Source of the DNA: Tubulanus polymorphus
Taxonomy: Eukaryota; Nemertea; Palaeonemertea; Tubulaniformes; Tubulanidae
Assembly: GCF_964204645.1 (NCBI RefSeq)
Contig: NC_134031.1
Location: forward strand, 1,114,001 to 1,178,000
Direction: 5' to 3'
DNA: 64,000 nt
Position 1 is the first letter of the stretch; each line of letters opens with the position of its first letter. This document shows positions 2,712 through 54,000 of this stretch, in pieces. Position numbers and translations under genes: made by a program. The notes beneath the pieces were generated by a model. That model made no database searches. It worked only from the letters and a program-made list of their open reading frames with translations, and was not told where the DNA came from.

Positions 2712-5700
2712 GATTAACATTGCGTATTGTTATTATCATTCTTACTACACAAAAAGCACTTTTTATCAAATGCAGTAGATTTGGTAGATTTTTTTTAGAT
2801 CTACTTATCTATTGTTTCGGAAGGTATTTTACCAGAGTGTTGAGTAGCGCTTGGAAGAGGATTTGCCCTGATCGTAATCCCGTCTCGCCGAGTAATAGAA
2901 CTAGTTTTATAGACAGGGGATGAACGTAGGCTTTTGCGGAAGATTTTTTAATCAAGTTGCTTATTTCGGTAAATGGAAATAACTGCCTGAATTTAATAAT
3001 GTCAGTTCTTGCGCGAGTAATAAACGCTGCTTGTCTATTAAACCAGGCTCTATATTGGTTTTTGTCTCGTAATACTGTATATAAAACCCGTATTCAATTA
3101 ACCTACATATAACGAATACATTGTGGCCTTGTTCTGTCCTAATACCTGGATGTGGTTGGTTGGTTGGTTGGTTTGAAGAGCTTCCATGTAATCCCGCTAT
3201 CAGAGTCTTGGAAGATGAGATCATGCTCGACGGCTTTACTGAATGTATTTAATTGGATGCTCTATATCATTCCATCGCGGCTGATGAGGTTTTTTTACCC
3301 CCCAAAAAAAATGTGCTGACATGAATTTTCACGATCTATGGCCTTGTATTGTCTACCATAACATGTTGTTGTGCATCAATTGGCCCTGATTATTCCCCCA
3401 AGGTCCAGTGCTCAAAAGTTGATTAAGGTTAGGTTGGTTACAGTTTTTACAGTCACTATGTCAGTTATCCGCTGCTTAACTTTAACCGACCTTAGAGCAA
3501 CTGACCCCAGATCGTTAATGCCTATCACCAGTCGAAGTCTCGTGCTGTGAAACCCTTGTATTGAATGTTCACCTCCTAACCTCAACCATCTGAATGAACT
3601 GGATTCAACTGTGTCTTACAGTGTACTGATATTATTTTTAGCACATTTTAATCTTAAATCTTACTTAATAATAACACGTTTGCTGTGGATTTCTTGCTAA
3701 ATCATTTATAACATCTCTCTTCAACTCTTAAATTGACCTTGGTTTCAGGTCCATTTTTGCATTTAAGTCTTAACTCTGGAACCCATGCACTATGGGCTCG
3801 GTATTGTAGTCTTTGTTTCCTCAGTAATCAATGCAAAGTTAATCGACTAAGATGATTCTCCATTACAGATAGCAACTTAAACTCAAACAGTACAGATTAC
3901 AATTTACAACGTAACAACACTGGCCAAGAGAGTTTTAATGGTCCGAAACCTATGCTGCCTTACAGCTCAATGTTCATCTTCAGTCCTACAAACCCGTGAG
4001 TATTAGAAATGCGCACGCACACAAATCTGTTGATACATTTGTTTCTGATATATGTATATGTTTTATTCAATTGAAGAAATAAAAACCCACTATAACGAAG
4101 TAAAGCTAAAAGACAATCGATGTTTCTACTCATGCTTCAAGTCGTTTTGAAACTTTTTTGAACTGACTCTAAGCATTTGATTTGAAATGTCAAAATCCTC
4201 TATTTGTTTTTGATTCACGATTGTAGGTCTTCTATTTCTCAATTTCTACGTGGATAAACTGATGATTTATGTTTCATTCTTTCAGAGTTCGTCGTTTTTG
4301 TCATTTTGTCGTGAATCTACGTTACTTTGACTTGTTCATCATGATCGTCATTTGTGCAAGCAGCGTTGCCCTGGCAGCTGAGGATCCGGTGTTTGAGGCA
4401 TCACCTCGTAATCAAATATTGATATATTTTGATTACGTGTTCACAGGTGTTTTCACTGTGGAGATGATCTTGAAGGTATTCATGCTGTTACTGATGAAAG
4501 TTTGACTAGAATATCAACACATTTGGGTTAAATCTGAACCTTGCTATAACAAACTCTGATATAAGAATCATCAGTCTTTACAATGCTAGATTTTCATCTC
4601 AAATAAGACAATCTTAGTAATTTCATACTGGATATGACTAACTATCACTCAAACTATCGGATTTCAACAAACAGATTTCCTGGTGCCCTGAAGTCCGTTG
4701 TAAGGAGGTTTCTCTGTATTGATTTTAGGCCTTAGCTATTAAAAATTTAAAGATCATTTTTTGATTGAGGTCACCACAGTGCAACAGGGCCCAGGGTCTG
4801 ATCTGGAACCTGGGAACAGTGATATACATCAACGGGACAGCGTCAACTGTCAGACAGACATCTGAGGAGTTTTAACATAAACCGGAAATTAAAAGATCTA
4901 TTTAATGGTTTCTGAATCAAACGACTGTTAAACAGTTACTGAATGATAAAGCTATGAGAATATTGAATCGCTATTTTTGACGTTTTTTCCCCTATTCTCA
5001 TCGTTCAGGTGATCGATCTTGGAATCGTTTTCCATCCCGGATCTTACTGCCGAGATGGATGGAACATCCTGGATGCTCTTGTCGTGATTTGTGCGTTGGT
5101 CGCATTTGCTTTCAGGTATGTTTTAAAATAATGGGAAAATAGTGGTCTATGTCTTGGGAAAAAATCCTGGTTTCACAAGATTGGCTTCTTTTAGATGTCG
5201 GATAAGTTTAACTATCACTTGCGAAATTTTCTGAGATCCTTAAGCTCTAATTCGAATATACAGTTTATGTTTACACATGTGATTAAGTTTGTAAATGCTG
5301 GTGTTATTTTAGTGCTATGGAAGCAGCTAACAGGTAGTTTCTTTATGAAACTGTGCATTCAATAATCAAGATGCATTTATAATGTATTATACTGACAACT
5401 TCTATATCCGCGCATGTTGAATTGATGACTATTGCTGCATATATAACTGATTTCAAATAGAATGAACTAAACATGCTTATAAGGGTTTAGTCTGAATGCC
5501 AGATAAGCTGATCTTACCGGTCACCCCTAGAACAGTATAAATACCAGCTGATCTTACCGGTTACCCCTAGAACAGTATAAATACCAGCTGATCTTACTGG
5601 TTACCCCTAGAACAGTGTGAATACCAGCTGACCTTACTGGTTACCCCTAGAACAGTATAAATACCAGCTGATCTTACTGGTTACCCCTAGAACAGTATAA

Positions 5701-8700
5701 ATACCTGCTGACCTTACTGGTTACCCCTAGAACAGTATAAATACTAGCTGATCTTACGGGTTACCCCTAGAACAGTGTGAATACCAGCTGATCTTACTGG
5801 TTACCCCTAGAACAGTATAAATACCAGCTGATCTTACTGGTTACCCCTAGAACAGTATAAATACCAGCTGATCTTACCGGTTACCCCTAGAACAGTATAA
5901 ATACCAGCTGATCTTACCGGTTACCCCTAGAACAGTATAAATACCAGCTGATTTTACCGGTTACCCCTAGAACAGTATAAATACCAGCTGATCTTACAAT
6001 CTTTAAAACAGTATTTCGAACACGCGTAACGTTGTATCGATTTTCTTGAATTCTATTTCGTGCTCTGTTAAACCTAGAAGAAGCAGGTAATGAATATCAT
6101 TTTCTTTAGATATTAATAGTTTTTCCTGTGTCGTTTGTTATTTTACCGTCCGTAAAAGGCAGAAGATTCTCCCCAACACTCTGAATAAACTGCTGTGTAT
6201 TTCTGGGACTGTAAAATAGCAAATTATTTCTTTATTCCTTTAGTCTAAGGATAATATTTTTGATTTTCAATATTGTAATATCCAAGGTTCAAAGCAGCGT
6301 AAGATGTGTTTTTTTAGTTTTATCAATTTTTTCCAGCTGTTTTATTCGTGGATTCTTTATGGTTTTTTATTTCGGTGTAAAAGAGAATATTTCACCTTCC
6401 ATTCAGCATTGACTCGAGGTTTTACTGGAACCGTTATTCACAGCAGGCCGTTCCTGGGGGAAAATTGAGAATGTGAAAATTGAAAAGGGCACCAAACAAG
6501 TTGAAAGATCTGTTTTTGAGAAAAAGTTGGTTCAGATATGTCATTTCAGTGTGGATAACAATTTGTGAAAAACTCTGTCCATGCTGTAACAATAATATAG
6601 AAGATCCTGCACTCAGAGAAGAAAAATGAGTCTGAAAATGTTGCCTTTAGTTCACGATTTATTTTCAATGTTTTGACTTTATCCTAATAGTCATCTTCAG
6701 GAATACAGATAGGAGAAGGTAGCTTAGTATTTCTAAAGATGAATATAAGGATAATTGTCAAAACATCAAAAATAAATCATTAGCTAAAGGAAACCTGTTC
6801 AGACTTTCTTTTTCTTGTCCAGGTGCAAGATTTTATATATTCAGTAGGATTTTTGATTATAAAAAAAAATTCAAATTCTATCATTTTGAAAATAAGTAAC
6901 GGGGCATGTAAACCTATCACGTTGATTGACAGGTGGTTCAGCCCCGCCTCTTATTGGATTGGACGAATCAAGGTGGATTATTTTCTTTTTTCGGTGGTAA
7001 CCATCATATAACCTGAAACTTTCCTTCGCTTGATTTTTTAAATCTACGTTTTAAGCTTTTTCAACAACGATATTTGTGCATCTTGTTATTATTTCCTTTT
7101 CCATATAGCTATAAATCAGATGGGTAAGTTTGTCCAATGTCATCGTGCCATTGTGTTCGACCAGTTCACAGCAGTCTTTAGCTTATCCCAGACTAATCCT
7201 GAATGAACTAAAGATGTGATGATAATTCAGTAATTTGATCATCATTTAGAACAAGAGATTCATTAGTATAGTGCAGAAGGATAAGGCACTGCTTTGAATA
7301 ATGCTCAGTTACAACTCCACACTCACTCACACACACACATGAGGTCTCACACTAACATTCGATTCATTGATCCTTCCCTTCTATACACATCATATTACAT
7401 TCAATTCATCCTGATGATATTGAAGAAGATGAGAGTTTGATTTAGCGCAAAAAGAGGATAGAAAATTGATAGAATTCACTAGATGTATTTGTAAAGAACA
7501 CTTGAATGAATAATGTTTCACTAAGATGGGCTGTTGTAAATTGAAAAGAAAACTTGTGTTTAGTCGTTTAGAATTGTGCCATTGTCTCTGCGGTGAAATA
7601 CTATTCATTTTGTTTTTAGATGTTCTTAAATCTTTCAGTAAAAATTCAGTATTTAGATGAATGAACAATGACTTTGAAGATAGCGTTCTCGTAATTAAGC
7701 TACACCTACACTACCCACTGTTGGGTAGTTTTAAATCCTTTTAACTTCTAGTACTACAGAGATCCTGACCCAAATCACCCTACAAGCAATACGCCTAAGG
7801 GCAGTTAAAAAAAAACAACTTTTCACTACCTTCATTCAAAATGACTGCTAACCTTAACCCTAGCTCGTTGCCAACCCTAGCACTAGCTCACCCATCACCC
7901 ATAACCCTGTTCCTAACCCTAGGTGGCATTTCTGGGACTTGAACCCGAGACCTCCTACACGCTGGGCCAGCATGCCAACCATTAGACCACCAAGTCATGG
8001 TGATTGGAAGAGTTTGGTGGTTTGCCTTGAATGAGATGAGTGACCAGTCAATGGTGATCAGTCAGGTGTGGTTTTGACTGATCGTCAAAGGTTCTATTCA
8101 CTAACAATACCTCTGATTACAAGAAATGACCCATTGCCAGCAATTTCTATTCTAACAAAGGCAATTATCCACTAGTTAAGCAAACTCATCTTTTAGAAAA
8201 ACTAAAACATAAAAAGATACAAAATCATATTATAACCTCAAAACAATAATTTTGCTAGATTTCGCAAACAATCCTTCAAGAACGACTATTTTGCCAATTC
8301 AATCGACCATATTTTGTACAGATGATAGCATGACACTGTTTGAAAATTAGTTTTGGTGAACAGAAGTTTGGCTACTGGGGGCTTTGGTCCTGAGCAAAAT
8401 TTAGTTGAATGTAATCCTTACAGTGCAGAAGAATGGTGTTGATAATGCATCCATGTATGATTTTACTTACTGATAAACAATCTTTGTCTCCAAATAAGTA
8501 AAGGGTATAGATCAAGCTAGTCTCGGGATCAGTTGCGACGAGTACTCGATGCATGTAGACTTAGCTTAGAATGGTACCGGTATAGGAAGCATGTTTACCG
8601 GAATCTGACTGTGAATTCTGAGCAGGAGAAAATGTTTGTCAGTTTCTGCATGTGTTTCAAAACAGAAAAAAGTGGGGAAAATGCTGGTTTTGATGTGAGG

Positions 8701-11700
8701 AGAATTTTTAATGATTTGTAACTAAATGTGATTCATACATTAAGATCTTGTACTTAACCCAGTTAAACATTTATATCAAACATCGGTCAAATACAATCTA
8801 TTTTTCAAAACTTATTCCAAAATTAAGAATAACAGTCATTCAACTATTCAACTGGTCAAATATTTCAGGTATTTATGATTGAATCAGTTTTGATGAACTA
8901 CTGTTTAAGAGACTGATCAATTCCCAACCTAGAACTGGATCCTGTATTAACACAATTTTTTATCTTGCAGTTCTAGTTTGCACGCTGTATTTTCTGTGTT
9001 CACGTATTGATAGATTCCGTATTTTCTTTTATTATTTCAGTGGCAGCACTTCAAACAACGGAGCCACCAAGAATTTAAACATGATCAAATCATTGAGGGT
9101 ACTGAGAGTGCTTCGACCGCTGAAAACTATCAATCGCGTGCCAAAACTCAAGGTCAGAATCTACTTTTCAATTTATATCTTCAATTACGTTATAAACATG
9201 TATGTTTTGAGATGATTTTTTTTATTCAAAGAGATTTTTGTCATAGTTTTAACTAATCAGTAAAAGTTTACTCATCACATCATTTCGATGAAGGTAAGAA
9301 ACCAGTTCCTTGATTCTTGGTTAAGTTTGACTCTAAAGAGTTAAAGGGTTAATGAAGCCCCTCATCAATGTATACTGTACGATACTGAAATCAGTTCAGT
9401 TTCAATGTTTTAAACTCTCTTTGAGTTGAACATTAATCGGGAAGTTTGGAACTGGATGTTTCTACAGTAGTATCTATTTACCCCGGAGTGGATTGCCTCG
9501 GATTATAATGTACCCCGCTTGACAATGTATTCAAAAATGTCCTTCCTCCGATTCTATCCCCGCTCCAACTGCCCGGAATTTACTTATTAACTCACAGAGA
9601 ATTTATTTGTCCCGCGAAATCCGAGGCAAACTGTAACTCGCTGTTCGACGAATTCGATCATTTTTCCAACAGAAAAAAAAGAAGTTGAAAGCTCTTTTTT
9701 TTTTTACAGCTTCACGTCGATGGCTCGGTATTGACTGATACGTTGAATGTTTGTTTGAATTTCAGGCAGTTTTCGATTGCGTAGTGAATTCCGTAAAACG
9801 AGTCACGTCGATACTCGTTGTCTATTCTCTGTTCCAATTAATTTTCGCGGTTGTCGCCGTTCAGCTTTTCAACGGCAAATTTTTCTACTGTACAGATATG
9901 TCCAAAACGACCGCAGAGGAATGTCAGTAAGTCATGCTGCGGTGATAACTGATGGAGCATGACTAGAAATAAAACTCTCCTCCGTCCGGACCACATGTAG
10001 TCATCCAACGATGTATATATATATATATATTTTATATGTATAATTCGATGTAAAGCTCGGTTCTCGCTATAGATTTGTGTTGATGAATCGCTTACTGTTT
10101 TCGCCGCTCTGAAAAATTTAACTTAACGATTTGAATTCTCAAATTTAACTCGTACCTGTAGTAACTGTTCAGCCACAATTTGTATCGCATCTTAAGGAAA
10201 TATTAGATTTTTAAACTTTAAACTAACGCCTGTTTAGGTCCCGATGAATCTAACTTACAGCAGTATATAATTGGTATGTAACGCTAAAACAAGTCCAATA
10301 ATTTGAATTTTGCAATTTTGATTTATTGATAAGATCGTTTAGTAACATATTCTGACTTGTTAATTGCATTGAACTCTAAGACTCGATCACTTTCTGAATC
10401 ATCATTTCCAGTAACTGCCTAAAAATAAATCAACCTGAAAAAATCAGCAGAGAAAAAACATCTTCACTAGACCTGAACAATAGGGTTGTAAGATAAATGC
10501 ACAATTGCAGTAATTAAAATCATTGCATATAAACCAATAAATTTGTTGTTAGTGAGTTGATGAATCTATATTGAGAATACAGCTGTGATCCTCTAATTCT
10601 AGAATCTATAGTGAGAATACAGCTGTGATCCTCTAATTCTAGAATCTCAGTTGATTTATTATTTTTATTCCCGTTAGTTCCTGTAGTAGAATACATGTAT
10701 TCGATGATTATCATTACGAACCACTGATTGTTTCCTGTTATTAGTTTTAAAATACATCGATGTCATTGATTATTAGGTGGTAAAAAGCTTCTTCGACTGC
10801 AATCGGATACAAACATTCATGAAACGCATATTAGAACTAATAAAATGCAGTGGTATTTATAATTCGTTTCAGTATCCGAGCTGTTAAAATAGACTTTTTT
10901 TTCTGTTTTTATTATTTTTACCGAGTGTTCAGATTTGCATGTCATCTGCCTACTAATTATAACTAGCAACTGGTACAAACGTAATCATTTACAGATTAAA
11001 TTGTTACTCATTCCGGGAAAAGGTGCAACTCTGCTACAATCCAATGGGGTCCAGACAATCCTGCCTCAATGTTGACGAACCCATTAAACGATTCTTGATT
11101 GACCTATGAAAATGAATTGCACAATTTGCTACAGAATCGGGCATTTGATTTACATGCGTATGTTATGTATCTATGTACATGCATATTTTATGTATTTGTG
11201 TACATGCATTTGTTATGTATTTGTGTACATGCATATGTTATGTATATTTGCATATGCATAAGCTCTTCCTCAGAAGAATGTCTTTGTGCCTAATTTTCCA
11301 CCAAAAAAATATTTTGAGCCTCAGAACGATCTGGTCACTGTCCTCATCTGTTTTAAGATGCAGCTGTAATTGCTGTGAGTGTCGTCTGTGTGTGATTACG
11401 ATTGTAAAAGTTGATGATGTTTTTGCCTGGTGGAGGTTGATACACTTTGCTTTCAGGTTGTCTCCTGCGACCTACGACGCCTGCCCGCGTGTCCGCGTGC
11501 GTCTCATACTGTGCACTGATAACTGTCTTTATGTTAAAACAACAACAAAAAATTACTTTTCATGTCCTGGCCGTATCTGCGGACAACCTTCTCGATCGAG
11601 AGATCAAATAGCGCGAGATTAGAGCGATATTTCTCTTATACAATTTTGTTGTTTCTTGTCTAATTTCAGGCTGTATTTCAATGCCTTATCAATTCAGTAA

Positions 11701-14700
11701 AGAATGTACTGAACATCATGGTAGTTTACATGCTGTTCCAGTTTATTTTTGCTGTTATCGCGGTCCAGTTGTTCGAAGGCAAATTCTTTTATTGTACTGA
11801 CCAATCAAAAGACACCGAAGAACAGTGTCAGTAAGTGTGGTTACTATGGTGACAGATTTCGCAAGATTTTCGGCTCATGAAAAAAGCTTCGATTAATTTT
11901 TTTTTTTTTTTCTTTAATGTTCGACATTGAAAATTTTTACCGATTATCCTCTCGTTTTCGCAATGTGATTCTTCACACAACTAGTTAAAAATGTGGCTTT
12001 GAATTTCTTTGTGCAGTCCGTCGCTTGCTCAACCCTTTCAAATTTCTATCGTATCATTATTACTTCGTGATTTTTAAAGAATATTGATTTTTGTCTGAAA
12101 CGAAAATACGTGAAAATCTACCCACTAAATCCACAGTTCTCTAAACTCTATACAGTTAATTAACTCTCCTATCATCACTGCTTTAAACACAGTCTAATTC
12201 TTACAGTTTGTTCACCGACAATTTTTATCAGCTTCTTCAAATGATATCGTACACCCCAGTAATATAGAATCCATGCACACTAAGAATAAACAGAGTCCAG
12301 GATGTTTACCTCGGTACTTGTGCTAGTATTTATTTACCCTTTTAACAACATCTTTATAGTCTTCTAGAAGTCTCTTTGTTCTAGATTATAAATGTGTCTT
12401 GTATTGCTGATAACTATTAGGATATAGTCGAAATGTTTAGTAAACTACAGCTCAAGGAATCATTCCGCTCCCTTTCTTAATGTGTTGGATTTTATATCAT
12501 CATTACAAAACGGACTCGCAGATTCTTCAAATTATCTTTAGAAGAACTATGTATGCTCTACATAACACCCTCGACTTCATGTATTTCAAATAATTGAGGA
12601 TGAATTATCCCCTTATTTTGGCGATAACTGCATCTCTTACACTACGAGGACTTGTTCATTATTTCTGTACCTCTGTTTCTAAGCGATGCAGGTCATCCTC
12701 CTCCTTAAGATATTCATAATTCATTCATTCATGTTTGGAACGCACAGCCACATTTCCATCAAAACAACTCGGCCTTCGTACAGTCTGTGAACATTGTACC
12801 AGTGACAAAACGATCTCGGCTTAGTTAAGTTTGTATGCATGGATATCTAGTTATATATGTGTACGGTCCGTGTTTTAGCTTTATCCCCCCTCACCCATGT
12901 AGAGTCAATGTTTCGCATGCATTCGGCCAAACAAATATTATTCAACACCGCTTCAAAAAACGCTTTTATTGTAACTTAGATCCATCAAACTTAAAATAAT
13001 GATCGCATAAAATCGCTCTTTCTAATTTTTTCGTTTGTTTGCGACTGTTTTTACGGAGCACGAATTGTTATTTTTAGGGGGCAGTATTTCGTGTATGAAG
13101 ATAATTCCGATACGCCGAAAGTGGAAGATCGCATGTGGAAAAGTCAAGATTTCAACTACGATCACGTTGGTTTAGCTTTGCTTACGTTATTCACTGTAAC
13201 GACAGGAGAAGGTTGGCCACAGTAAGTACATGTGTGACACTGGAGTTATCAAGACTGCGTTTGTCACCGAGCAGATTTCCCCTGGATTATCATGTACGTG
13301 CCCCTGACTCTGCTTGCCATAGAGACAACTGTCTCTGATTATCACGTGCCCCTGACTCTGCTTGCCATAGAGACAACTGTCTCTGATTATCACGTGCCCC
13401 TGACTCTACTTGCCATAGAGACAACTGTCTCTGATTATCACGTACCCCTGACTCTTCTTGCCATAGAGACAACTGTCTCTGATTATCACGTACCCCTGAC
13501 TCTGCTTGCCATAGAGACAACTGTCTCTGATTATCACGTGCCCCTGACTCTGCTTGCCATAGAGACAACTGTCTCTGATTATCATGTACCCCTGACTCTG
13601 CTTGCCGTAGAGACAACTGTCTCTGATTATCACGTGCCCCTGACTCTACTTGCCATAGAGACAACTGTCTCTGATTATTACGTACCCCTGACTCTTCTTG
13701 CCATAGAGACAACTGTCTCTGATTATCACGTACCCCTGACTCTGCTTGCCATAGAGACAACTGTCTCTGATTATCACGTGCCCCTGACTCTGCTTGCCAT
13801 AGAGACAACTGTCTCTGATTATCACGTACCCCTGACTCTGCTTGCCGTAGAGACAACTGTCTCTGATAATCACGTACCCCTGACTCTGCTTGCCATAGAG
13901 ACAACTGTCTCTGATTATCACGTACCCCTGACTCTGCTTGCCATAGAGACAACTGTCTCTGATAATCACGTGCCCCTGACTCTGCTTGCCATAGAGACAA
14001 CTGTCTCTGATTATCACGTAACCCTGACTCTGCTTGCCATAGAGACAACTGTCTCTGATTATCATGTACCCCTGACTCTGCTTGCCGTAGAGACAACTGT
14101 CTCTGATAATCACGTACCCCTGACTCTGCTTGCCATAGAGACAACTGTCTCTGATTATTACGTACCCCTGACTCTGCTTGCCACAGGGCTGAATTGCCTT
14201 GGATTATCACATGCCCTACATGACAAAATGTTAGAAATTGAATGTTAAGAATTCTCCCCCTATCCGTCGTCGCTCTGATTGCTCCAGATTTCACTCGTCT
14301 GGAAGAACATTCGTTAGTCCCAAGCGGAGTCTACTATATCTATGGATATGTCATCATGTGTTTGTATGATTATAGGGTTCTACAGCATTCGATGGATGCC
14401 ACTGAGAAGGATCAAGGACCGTCGCCCGGAGCTGCTATGCAGATGGCTATTTTCTATATCGTGTTTTTCATCGTGTTTCCGTTTTTCTTTGTGAATATAT
14501 TCGTTGCGTTGATCATCATCACATTCCAAGAACAAGGAGAAAATGAACTGATCGATCAGGACTTGGATAAAAATCAGGTTTGAAAGGAAACTTGCTTCTC
14601 GAAATCAAACGGCAGCTTGTCTCGGAATCAGAGTTAGCGCTGACAACTCATCTCAAGCTCACAACCCACGTCTGCCAATTTAACTGATGATCTTATTTTC

Positions 14701-17700: not shown

Positions 17701-20700
17701 GTTGGAAAGTGATTGATATTTCTATTAATGTCTGTTCTTATATCGATATATTTTACATGTATATATTCAATGTGTATATTTCATCACATCTCATTAACGG
17801 TATCGTCATCTCAGTACATGTTGACAAAGAACTGCAGTATTCATTGTTTGAAACATATAAAACTAATCCTAGACATTTGTTTAAAGCATATATATATATA
17901 TATATATCTGCTACAATCAACAGAGCTGAAGAGCTTGCCAGGTTTTTCTGCGCATATGTGCTTCAGGGCATGCACCGGGCCCTTGGGCAGGCACCAGGCT
18001 CTTGGGCATACTTCTTGATACTACTAGTATCTGAATTGTCGTCAAATGCAGTCAATAGTTCTCATTTAAAGTCATCATGTACTTGAGGAGTTGTGTACTA
18101 TCATAATCATTGACTCATCGTCTCAAGATCGTTGACATTTTCTCTCAATTTCCTAACAACATTTCATCATTTAACCGGATAGAAGCAGCTCTTGTAAAAT
18201 TCAGGAAGTTTTCTTCGAATTTTAATCACTCATTTTTAAGATTAATGTGAGTTTTATGTGAATTTCAAACTTACTGATCAGTGAAAAATCTCCTTTTTGT
18301 CTTTCTTTGCAAACCTTCCAAAGATTTCAAGAAAGTCCCCTTATTCTATTTCAGTGCTATGAAAATATGTTGCAATTTTAATGGGTTGAATTCACCTACA
18401 TATGATACTATACTTGCCTATATTTTAGTTACTCAGGGTAAAAATGTTTCAATTTCTTTCTACCACGATGTTAAGGACCACGGACCAAAGATTGATATCT
18501 AAGTAGCTCTAGTGAACAATCAGGGATGGGGGCGACCTTTACTTGTATCCCAATTCCACCCTCTTCTAAATCAAATCTCGAGCCATGAATTTCTGACGAT
18601 CAGTACGTTTGAAATTGTATATTCATGTATGATTGTGGTGGAGGGATTGTTACGTATTTACTGGTGATGGTTAAATGTTTTTATAAATGAGGTACAGTGC
18701 GAGTGGTGAGTGTTAGCGATGAGTGGATGCCCAGTACCGGTAGTGATAGGATATTTTGGCCCCACCTGTCTTCAATGTCCCCACTGTATGCGTTGCTCCC
18801 AACCAGTCAGTAGTCTATTTACCATTTCACGTTATGTAATGATTTTTTGAACTATGTTGTCACTCTATACATGTAAATTACTTGTTATTATTGTCTATTT
18901 TCAAACCTTTATAGTTCTATGGTTCGAGTATTCAATACAGAGAAGTGCTGAAAAACCTAAACACCGCATTCACCGTACTTTTTACGATTGAGTGTATATT
19001 GAAGCTTATGGCCTTTGGAATTAGGGTAAGCCTGCGTCCGTACGCAAACACGACAACACAAAACAGCGTCTAGAGGGTTAGACCTAGTGTGAACAGAACG
19101 TGGCAGATACTCGTGTAGACGCGCACAACAACTACAACTACAAAATGTTCTTCGTTTTAGAAAATTTGTCGTTTTCACTATTTGTAGTACACAACAACAA
19201 CTCCATCCATCGATGTGGTCCAATTCTCAAAGCATTTTCGTGGAAGAGCTTATAGTCACGCCACATGTAGCCGTGGGTACTGCTGTACATGGTGTCACGC
19301 CATGGTGCAGTGGGTACTGCCGTACATGGTGTCACACCATATTACAGTTGGTACTCTCATTCTGCTTAATGTGGTATGACTCTAAGATTATAAATCTGTT
19401 CTATGCATTGTTCACTATAAGGTCAACCGTTCGGCTCCAACTAACCTTCTATTTTGATTTCTACCTCCCGGGGTGCCTTGAGATTTAGCATGTGGTTTTG
19501 GTGGCTCCTCATGCCCTATTGCTTCTCCGTGGTTTAGGGTTTAGTCGGTTGTTGGTCTCTTTCCTCGGGTGCAGGGTTTTCTATATTTAGCACCACTAAC
19601 TATGTTATTATCAGTGTTTATTCGGTTATTTTTTTACAAATCAAATGAACTGACAGCTTCTGATTCTGTAGTCGGAAGTTTTCAGTTACGATGGCCGCGT
19701 GAATGATTAGAAATGATGAACTATTGTACATTTTGCTGATCTCTGAAACTTTCATAATGCCTGGAGTTTGTTTCACCATCGATTCTGTACACAGTTTATA
19801 TATAGATAACTTCTGGTCTTAAGTCACAACTGTGCAACTGGAGCCTTCAGTCTAAAATCGTGGTTCTGATACAGGCTCCAGGTTCAAAGTTTCCTTACAT
19901 GATAATGATTTATGCAGTAATTCTAAAACTGCTACCACTACTGCTGCTGCTGCTACCACTGCTGCTGCTGCATCTGCGAGAGTTCATCAATTTCAGTTCA
20001 TGCGGTCATCGTTTCAATCTCGCACAGATAAACGGTTAAAGCATCTTTATCATTATTTTTCTTTTCTTTCCGTCACATGCTTCAGCACCATCAAGACCCC
20101 GCTACTAAGGACCATGCAAAATTTGAACGATACACTTTGGCCTTAGCGTATTTGAATATTGCATTCACGATTATGTTTACGATCGAATGCACCCTGAAGC
20201 TCATTGCGTTTGGACTACGGGTATGACCAGACTATCGAAGCAACAATTTACAGATATATAAATATTCATATATTTATATATATTTTTTTATGCCTTCAAT
20301 TCGACGACAGTTTTGAAATGATCGACGCGGTTTCAAAGTTGGCGAGCGGCCATTTCAAAAATTAGTCTCGTAGAAGGCATGAATTTGATGAAGCATACTA
20401 GATCACGTGTGACAATTGAAAGTTGTCTGTTATTGAAATCTTGCGTTTCAACATTCTGTTTGTCTCGTCGTCTCAATATCTCGGCTTTTTGATCTGAAGA
20501 ACGTGTGACATTTTACTGAATCGCTGCTGGACACAATTTATACACAATTCACTGATGATGAATTATCAGCATACCTTTTGATATTATTGTACTGTGAAAA
20601 GTGCTTTTGAAATGGCAGTGATACAGTCAAACTTGCACAAGTCATCATGAGATAAGTCGTCCTGAATAACTGAACTCATCTTAGTTTGAGTCCTAAGCCC

Positions 20701-51000: not shown

Positions 51001-54000
51001 GTCATAACGTCTGAATGCACACACATTTATACAATCGCGCTCAAGAACGCATGTCTTACATTGTGCATGATCTTTAATAATAGATCTCTAAAAGAATAAT
51101 TTGTCAGAAAACACGCATCATAATATTCCGTTGTAATCATAGCGAGAATAGCTGTACCTCCTTTTAAACCACACAAATCGACACACATAGAATTTCACTT
51201 CATTTATGAGATGTTTTTTACGTGTATCGTGAATGAGCACTTGCAACAGATGCACTTTTCTTCCTTCGCTTGAAACTGCTAGGTCTTTTTAACTGTTACA
51301 ACTCTGTATGAATGAATGCATTAATATCTACTTGGCAAATGAATATATCACTGACAATTTATAATCGACACTGATATAGAATTATACGATATAATATATT
51401 TGGTAGCTATGTTGAATGGTGTTAGTTTTCTTACTTTGATTGGTGATGGGTGTTTTATGAAAGGTATGATTCAGTGTATGTTGGTTTGCGTCGTAATCTC
51501 TCATCAGTCCAGAAATTTGTTTCCAATATTAACCAATAGACCTATCAATCAGATGTATATGTTTGTTTATATCAGGTGACCAGCTCTAGACCAATCACAA
51601 ATAGGGTAGTTAAACGTGGTAACTCTAGTGTTGACCTGATATAAAACGCGGTAACCATAGGGTTAGCCTGCCTATTTGTTTACATCAGGTGACCAGTTCT
51701 AGACCAATCAAAAATAGGGTTGTAAAACATGCCAACCCTAGTATTGGCCTGTTGTAAAACATGGTAACCCTAGTATTGGCCTGCAGTAAAACATGCTTAC
51801 CCTAGTGTTGGCCTGATGTAAAACATGGTAACCATAGGGTTAGCCTGCCTATTTGTTTACATCAGGTGACCAGTTCTAGACCAATCAAAAATAGGGTTGT
51901 AAAACATGCTAACCCTAGTGTTGGCCTGCTGTAAAACATGCTAACCCTAGTGTTGGCCTGCTGTAAAACATGGTAACCCTAGTGTTGGCCTGCTGTAAAA
52001 CATGGTAACCCTAGTGTTGGCCTGCTGTAAAACATGGTAACCCTAGTGTTGGCCTGCTGTAAAACATGGTAACCCTAGTGTTGGCCTGCTGTAAAACATG
52101 CTAACCCTAGTATTGGCCTGATGTAAAACATGGTAACCATAGGGTTAGCCTGCCTATTTGTTTACATCAGGTGACCAGTTCTAGACCAATCATATGCTAG
52201 GATAGAATGTGGTGTAGTTGATTGGATCAAGAAAATACTACTAGAGTTTGTCAACTGTATTATAATACTACACTACTAATAAATAGAATAGAGCTTACTA
52301 TGATAAGGGACTTGAGTATTTAATATAAGAATAAGTAAAAGTTTCATTTGTACAAATGAATAAGAAAAAACCAGAAAATAAAGGAAACTATATTCTAAAT
52401 CGTAATGAATCTTTTAATTGGAATCTGGATTGTTTCATCAGTGATTGAGTGATGTTATTTAGAGAGAGGAGACAGAATTTTTGTACTGATGAGATTTGTT
52501 TCTTGTGAGACTGATGTATGTTGATGTGTGACTGATCTTACACGTAGTCATTCCTACTATTCATGCATGACATTATTATACATATATATTATAGCTGACT
52601 AGTATGCATTTCCAAACAGCAACATTGCACCCTATAGAATGAGTGTCTGATCAGATCAGTTCAATAGACTATTCCTAACAGTGAAATTACAAACTGATCT
52701 ATGTGGTTATAGCTGAATGAATGATTGAAGCGAGTTTATACGTTTGATATAAAGTGTTTTCACAGAAAACGGGTCATTTTATTTCGAAAAATTAACGTTT
52801 CAGCTCAATTTCTGATTCATTATGAATGTATTTGATGCATGGTATCGCGATTGTTCAGAAGTTTGAAATTCTCATTCGATGCGATCTTTTTCAGATTTCC
52901 TCCCGACGAACGTTTATCATCCTCGAAAAACTGATATTAAAAAAAACGTATGCAAATTTATTTTGTAGGATTTTTCTTCTGGTTTGAAGCCGGAGCACGC
53001 GAGCGGATTGCCGTCGTATCACGATGTAGTACCCGTTACCCCGACTACCCCGCGATCCCCGACTTCCCCAACGTACAACCAACGAGCACGCTCGCCGTCT
53101 CCTCGACGAGCCGATATTGGTTTTTCCGCCGCAGTAACAAATATTTGTGATCAAGCGCATGAAATAGCGGACCGCGATCGAATCCGAGATAGTTACCGTA
53201 GAAAGAAAGGTAGACACCAGTGTAGCCGTCGTTTTATCAATACAACTAATAGAGATGAGATCAGTCGAACTGTATTTACACAATTACTCAATAAACCTAC
53301 TCTAAATCTGATGCATTCTTGATTCTTCTCGAACAGAACCTAGTTTAAGTTGTGTATAAACCATGCATACCTGAAAATACTGAGATTCTGGATTAGTTCC
53401 ACACTTCTGGGGCTGTAGTTGCTCAAAAGTTGGTTTAAGATATCCGGGTCCAGTTCCACAGTTCTGTGTTAAGATTTGACTCATTAAAAATGAACTAACT
53501 TTTACTGCGAGTTCCCCTAACTCACGACTGTGGAACTGGGTCCTGGTTGATAGATACCATAGAAACGATGAATTGTTAATTGTCACTATGTCAAACTATC
53601 CACTGGTTAACTCTAACCAACTTTTGAGCAACTGAAGCCGATGGGTACTAAATACAGCCAAGCATTTTGAATATAGAGTTAACTCATTTGTTCATTTGTA
53701 TTTCCAGTTCGATTTACTAAATGTAAGTCGTCAACAAAATGATAATCCTGACTGTTATTCTAACTCTATCTCAGTTAAACTCGAACGAGGAGTAGGGCTC
53801 GGTTTATAGACATCTACAGCTTCGCTTGTGAATATTGTGTAAAATTTGACTGACTCGTCTTTTAGTCCTATTGATTTAGTTGTTGTAATTTGTGTGCAAT
53901 TGATGTTAGTCGTAGTTGAAATGATTGAAATATAATTTGGAATTCTTCGGTAATACCGTTAATATTCCTGCAGTTCTAGCTAGTTACTTGTCAAACCTGT

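Follow-up and report, generated by a model that had tools for sequence, protein, structure and literature searches.

The gene for Cav2, the nerve-ending type of calcium channel, in Tubulanus polymorphus, a palaeonemertean ribbon worm, very probably carries a pair of mutually exclusive exons for the S5 segment of domain III (IIIS5). The pair, here called exons A and B, lies in a 64,000-nucleotide (nt) stretch of NC_134031.1 (positions 1,114,001 to 1,178,000, forward strand), which we refer to as the window and whose coordinates are used throughout. Judged from the sequence, the best reading is that A and B are alternatives within the single Cav2 gene found in T. polymorphus. The exons concerned, named with reference to the NCBI protein of this gene (P0003), are arranged as follows.

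9041-9152, + strand: common exon 27, from the IIIS4 voltage sensor to ...RVPKLK, placed by mapping P0003; ends in phase 0, donor AAG/GTCAGA
9766-9926, + strand: exon A (28a), the III S4-S5 linker, S5 and start of the turret; phase 0 to 2; absent from P0003
11670-11830, + strand: exon B (28b), the alternative copy; phase 0 to 2; equals exon 28 of P0003
13078-13221, + strand: common exon 29, the remaining domain III turret and P-loop (TGEGW); starts in phase 2
9708-9709, + strand: upstream AG scoring 13.3 bits, against 12.3 for the acceptor of exon A itself; may be unused

Two copies of the IIIS5 exon in a Cav2 gene

The original prediction described two intact 161-nt exons, both running from phase 0 to phase 2 with proper GT/AG sites, and inspection of the sequence confirmed it: each copy is 161 nt long, has the borders ttcag/.../gtaagt and keeps an open frame from phase 0 to 2. 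Exon A sits within the intron that precedes exon B, and the tandem arrangement between common flanking exons held when the exons of P0003 were mapped. A recount gave the same residue at 38 of 53 whole codons, or 39 of 54 with the common split codon Q54 included, in agreement with the earlier figure. In a BLASTP comparison of all 1258 open frames of at least 28 amino acids, the frames of A and B matched with E = 6e-27, which puts their likeness beyond chance. Length and cysteines are identical between the two. With helix borders as usual for the channel family, the 15 variable sites fall in the linker and start of S5 (4, 6, 7, 12, 14, 15, 17), in S5 (21, 25, 30) and in the turret (36, 45, 48, 50, 52), where the charge is -1 in A and -3 in B, a difference of two. 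The scores of a search for a third, decayed copy in the three introns were inside the shuffle range.

Predicted messages that contain A only or B only both yield a protein of 2202 amino acids. By contrast, a message with A and B meets a stop at the 10th codon of the B part, and one with neither exon meets a stop at the 7th codon past the junction. Because both of these combinations end early, productive messages are predicted to use exactly one exon, as first proposed, and the reading frame alone makes such messages mutually exclusive.

Every one of the 2202 residues of P0003 has an exact place in 48 coding exons, which lie in the window and the 60 kb before it (window coordinates -59121 to 57912), and the protein contains exon B at 100%. 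The closest relatives of the A/B region in the PDB are IIIS5 of Cav2.2, Cav2.1 and Cav2.3. Exon B scored 84, 82 and 77 bits against these three chains and 55 bits against Cav1.3; for the other domain III exons the top three solved relatives were likewise Cav2 chains, before Cav1. With Cav2 relatives ahead of Cav1, the proposed channel identity and IIIS5 position both stood. P0003 has an EEEE selectivity filter (TMEGW, TGEDW, TGEGW and TGEAW, identified by eye), an IQ domain (PF08763) and the C-terminus ...DEDDWC, and DWC is described as a conserved C-terminal ligand of Cav2 (PMC10657410). Sequence features of this kind identify the gene as that of a Cav2 alpha-1 subunit, set apart from Cav1, Cav3 and Nav. 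When the 267.8 Mb genome was searched with exon B, eight candidates were scored and six places matched at E <= 0.001: A, B and four weaker matches, assigned by eye to Cav1 IIS5, Cav1 IIIS5 and two Nav-like sequences. With this query and threshold, the T. polymorphus genome gave no second Cav2 gene and no IIIS5 pair in Cav1, where a single IIIS5 exon was seen.

Age and divergence of the pair

Exons A and B are identical at 105 of 161 nucleotides (65%). By codon position, 39, 46 and 18 of 53 sites are identical at the first, second and third positions (14, 7 and 35 differ), and third-position divergence, at 1.6 by the Jukes-Cantor correction, is near saturation. Ungapped comparison of the flanking introns gave 50/200 and 62/200 identical positions, about the random level. 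This degree of identity, together with unalignable flanks, indicates that the duplication is neither recent nor made by the assembly. In neutral simulations at 0.5, 0.8 and 1.2 substitutions per site, none of 4000 simulated exons at each level stayed open with 38 identical residues, and 5% did so at 0.2. Since third positions are far past 0.2 substitutions per site, A and B have probably both been translated as part of the channel for the greater part of their history. By these sequence measures the pair is an old duplication under protein constraint.

To place A and B among other Cav2 channels, we used the best 120 of 1131, 692 and 8000 matches from three protein searches. All 325 proteins listed there were taken, and their IIIS5 segments come in 79 distinct forms. 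The set, selected for similarity to A, B or P0003, has many insects and mammals. Leaving aside Tubulanus B and the segment of a second nemertean, Lineus longissimus, 77 segments served as the reference, in which 35 positions are conserved at 93% or more. At these positions 56 of the reference segments show no departure, 17 show one and 4 show two. Exon A departs at five (10, 12, 15, 25, 30), as does exon B (4, 6, 7, 10, 17). Compared directly, the two disagree at 8 of the 35; among 2926 pairs of reference segments the maximum is 4. Position 12, arginine in A, is N in all 78 other listed segments, Lineus included, and position 4, glutamine in B, is D in 76 of 78 and otherwise Q (Lineus) or E (Helobdella); Q4 of B is the Cav1 residue at that place. 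Exon A is up to 79-81% identical to insect and annelid Cav2 among the best 120 of 692 matches. On this comparison, the most striking differences between A and B are those in the S4-S5 linker and the start of S5 (4, 6, 7, 12, 15, 17), rather than turret charge.

The same exon stands out within the whole protein. In an exon-by-exon test on a 22-protein alignment, limited to columns that are filled in at least 15 rows and in which the 20 non-nemertean rows show 93% conservation, Tubulanus B departs at 5/35 columns in the IIIS5 exon against 11/666 in the other exons (Fisher p 7e-4). The Lineus protein departs at 6/35 in the IIIS5 exon and at 4/666 elsewhere (Fisher p 2e-6).

The L. longissimus protein (P0229, 69% identity) has a B-type segment with Q4, L6, I7, V10 and E36. 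Among the listed segments, Q4, L6, I7 and E36 occur jointly only in B and Lineus, and A is without them. V10 is common to A, B and Lineus, all 77 other distinct segments having L. In a tree of 30 hand-picked segments and 54 columns, with long branches for A and Lineus, B and Lineus are joined with support of 98/97 and A is left apart from both, a suggestive grouping of B with Lineus. A forced clade of A with Lineus costs 11.6 log units (p-AU, the p-value of the approximately unbiased test, 0.022), and one of A, B and Lineus together costs 3.3 log units (p-AU 0.32). Because departures are concentrated in the IIIS5 exon of Lineus and its segment is of the B type, the pair may predate the split between Tubulanus and Lineus, and V10, common to all three sequences and absent from the other 77, fits a single nemertean-stem origin. 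Taken from the tree and these residues, the duplication probably occurred in the nemertean stem lineage, before the Tubulanus-Lineus split. The order of events would be L10V, then the duplication, then the changes peculiar to B, and then the parting of Tubulanus and Lineus.

Counterevidence and alternative explanations

Several observations weigh against the reading of A and B as old, mutually exclusive exons. The only T. polymorphus NCBI Cav2 protein found contains B; it is listed without an isoform number and stands alone in its 90% cluster. Exon A as query retrieved no nemertean protein among the best 120 of 692 matches. In the 22-protein test the departures of exon A are modest (3/35 against the same 11/666, p 0.03). 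A forced clade of A and B without Lineus, at a cost of 13.7 log units and p-AU 0.079, is disfavored but not rejected. Finally, pairing, steric block and a mix of U2 and U12 sites were each considered, and no specific exclusion mechanism was recognized in the sequence. Base-paired docking and selector elements in the introns were no stronger than shuffles: the best duplexes in 40-nt windows had -29.7, -25.1 and -26.4 kcal/mol, and 15 shuffles each went as low as -31.5, -33.9 and -32.9, with the A-B intron paired with the third intron by its last 700 nt only. At 1743 nt, the A-B intron is long for steric exclusion. All borders of the pair are U2-like GT-AG sites, and no U12-type sites flank it. 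A recognizable exclusion mechanism is common in tandem mutually exclusive exons and optional for the class; the remaining route is the reading frame plus decay.

One alternative concerns timing and is compatible with mutually exclusive use of the exons. The duplication could be private to Tubulanus, the B-type residues of Lineus having arisen separately, in which case the pair would have the same function and be younger. The A+B clade is formally unrejected, on 54 columns only. We nevertheless consider a private duplication unlikely: B joins Lineus with 98/97 support and has Q4, L6, I7 and E36 in common with it, residues absent from A, third codon positions are near saturation, and departures are concentrated in the IIIS5 exon in both worms.

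It is less probable still that exon A is a silent or near-silent relic in a gene that now always takes B. An NCBI protein with B only, and the failure of exon A to match any annotated nemertean protein among the best 120 of 692, are what such a relic would leave. However, the frame of exon A is open and its splice sites equal those of B in quality. Scored with a matrix from the introns of the gene itself, the donors of A and B are equal, and the acceptors have 12.3 and 10.4 bits, at quantiles 0.93 and 0.74 among the gene's own 46. The strong purifying pattern over codon positions, and the 79-81% identity that exon A reaches with insect and annelid Cav2 among the matches listed, also speak against a relic. 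Moreover, P0003 omits one copy of a second tandem pair in the same gene, at the S2 segment of domain IV (IVS2).

18915-19025, + strand: IVS2 exon C (NCBI exon 32), 111 nt, phase 0 to 0; in P0003
20086-20220, + strand: IVS2 exon D, 135 nt, alternative copy at the site of Aplysia exon 33a/33b; absent from P0003

Exons C and D cover the IVS1-S2 loop plus IVS2. Since both lengths are divisible by three, the frame would survive skipping as well as inclusion of both. In Aplysia, two alternative exons encode the IVS1-S2 loop and S2, and the preference between them differs in sensory neurons (PMC10657410). Two IVS2 types were also present among Crassostrea virginica isoforms, with a pattern that caught 119 of 327 proteins. 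Because P0003 omits exon D, whose Aplysia counterpart is used, the absence of A from P0003 is weak evidence against A. By analogy with Aplysia, this is a Cav2 gene of the kind that uses tandem exon pairs.

More improbable again is that the pair serves mainly to control expression level by poison splicing, with both exons, neither exon or the AG at 9708-9709 giving deliberate premature stops while one protein form dominates. All these combinations do end in early stops, and the upstream AG scores 13.3 bits. It closes a run of T followed by ACAG (9690-9709), 56 nt upstream of exon A, and is the top-scoring acceptor of that intron; splicing there would add 56 nt and lead to a stop at the 25th codon. 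Yet a poison exon has no need of 53 constrained channel residues, and both A and B read correctly into the channel. An assembly artefact or haplotype duplication can be practically dismissed, given 65% nucleotide identity, unalignable flanks and a single 21.6 Mb contig.

The gene has other features of note. Two introns upstream are of the U12 type, judged by donor sequence: intron 2 (L009, about 6804; position 1090804 of C7, the contig of the window), an AT-AC intron reading ATATCCTTT...AC, and intron 17 (L007, about 7069; contig C7:1111069), reading GTATCCTTT...AG. Two micro-exons, 5313-5333 (21 nt) and 7109-7123 (15 nt), correspond to NCBI exons 25 and 26 in the III S3-S4 region, and the 15-nt exon sits roughly at the place of the four residues added by Aplysia exon 27 or vertebrate e24a. 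The intron after exon 29 contains a minisatellite (13238-14330) of 48-nt units with long open frames on both strands, the probable source of a DUF3219 match. Further tandem repeat arrays in Cav2 introns, with spacings taken from matching open frames, lie at 5517-6096 (about 40-nt spacing) and 51540-52161 (about 32 nt). Across the window, a search for structured RNA gave zero Rfam matches at gathering scores.

Predicted function and relation to known exon pairs

With A and B as mutually exclusive exons, each pre-mRNA would retain a single copy, and the gene would make two channels that are alike except in the III S4-S5 linker, the S5 helix and the initial part of the domain III turret. Messages with both or neither would be subject to nonsense-mediated decay or encode a channel cut off in domain III, and the choice of exon would probably be made by cell-specific splicing factors. 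S4-S5 linkers pass S4 movement to the gate (PMC7966529). Going by the residues exchanged, the likeliest effect of the swap is a shift in activation voltage and gating kinetics, through changed coupling of IIIS4 to the pore, and the difference in turret charge could have a second effect, on blockers. A connection with nemertean toxins or self-resistance was considered and dropped, as nothing spoke for it.

The swapped positions adjoin human disease mutations. PMC7966529 places CACNA1A C1369Y among the mutations of S4-S5 linkers and CACNA1D I1015S/V in IIIS5, where CACNA1H I1430T affects the same position; CACNA1I I1306T is likewise listed for IIIS5. Counted from the S4 residues named there, C1369 is position 5 of the exon, and by PDB alignment ranges position 13 is I1015 of Cav1.3 and I1306 of Cav3.3. 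Exon B would thus alter D4 beside position 5, and exon A would alter N12 and N15 around position 13. Position 14 differs as well.

In vertebrates, exons 21/22, 8/8a and 31/32 of Cav1.2 and 37a/37b of Cav2 encode IIIS2, IS6, IVS3 and the C-terminal EF-hand region, respectively; none encodes IIIS5. They are tandem duplicated, mutually exclusive pairs, as A and B would be (PMC9741552). Voltage-gated channels have more than their share of tandem duplicated exons, and human and fly calcium channels account for ten independent duplication events, each in a different exon (PMC9741552). The Drosophila Cav2 gene, cacophony, likewise has mutually exclusive pairs, IS4A/IS4B and I-IIA/I-IIB, and the choice at IS4 alters voltage activation and synaptic localization (PMC11828482). 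These pairs concern IS4 and the I-II linker, the only sites named in the portion of PMC11828482 consulted, and not IIIS5; they represent a separate event in another phylum. The relevant section of PMC9741552 leaves unnamed the exons of a third cacophony pair and of two Drosophila Cav1 pairs, among which a Cav1 IIIS5 pair is possible. Exons C/D of the Drosophila sodium channel gene para resemble A/B as mutually exclusive membrane-spanning exons for S4-5 of one domain, but belong to domain II of a sodium channel (PMC4309913).

Exons 12a/12b of Cav3, present in Lymnaea and most protostome groups, also run from the S5 helix into the turret of one domain (PMC4436565), and a Ca-alpha1T pair is conserved across protostomes (PMC9741552). 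Together with the pairs of para and cacophony, 12a/12b come nearest in kind to A/B. They lie in domain II, reach the P1 helix and change turret length, cysteines and ion selectivity (PMC4436565), whereas Tubulanus A/B lie in domain III of Cav2, have equal lengths and cysteines and include the S4-S5 linker. Aplysia CaV2 exons 33a/33b belong to the same gene and have their Tubulanus counterpart in exons C and D, while the eight alternative sites of Aplysia CaV2, as described in the source, exclude IIIS5 (PMC10657410).

An alternative IIIS5 was also looked for in other species. Twelve of 14 hand-picked species with at least two listed proteins show one IIIS5, a weak indication as 90% clustering hides isoforms. 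The 9 listed Glossina and 30 listed Anopheles proteins (three species) have one IIIS5 sequence per species. Parasteatoda and Biomphalaria have two IIIS5 each, but the proteins differ over their whole length and look like paralogues or products of different sources. In ranked literature searches, no title or abstract opening among the papers listed announced an alternative IIIS5 in Cav2 or a study of nemertean calcium-channel splicing; the original prediction had known of no such IIIS5 either.

By the literature searched, at the level of titles and abstract openings, A/B would be without a described precedent in Cav2 and among nemertean calcium channels alike. The observation is sound and its first interpretation is supported: as far as sequence can tell, A/B places a switch of a known kind at a new site, and the signs that the two forms diverged in function are unusually clear. 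A natural swap of equal length, confined to the S4-S5 linker, S5 and the beginning of the turret in one domain, would be a clean instrument for examining gating coupling apart from voltage sensing and selectivity. The exon-by-exon constraint test, in which one exon escapes from a closely conserved protein, suggests a cheap detector of hidden alternative exons. Finally, it is plausible, although we lean slightly to the doubtful side, that nemerteans as a phylum have a stem-derived splice switch of the III S4-S5 linker and S5 in one Cav2 gene. Both copies would have been freed to change residues that are nearly invariant elsewhere, in vertebrates as in insects and molluscs (N12R and N15S in A; D4Q, V6L and V7I in B), giving two presynaptic channel types with differing activation range. 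In vertebrates, three Cav2 genes fill the role that one nemertean gene would then cover.

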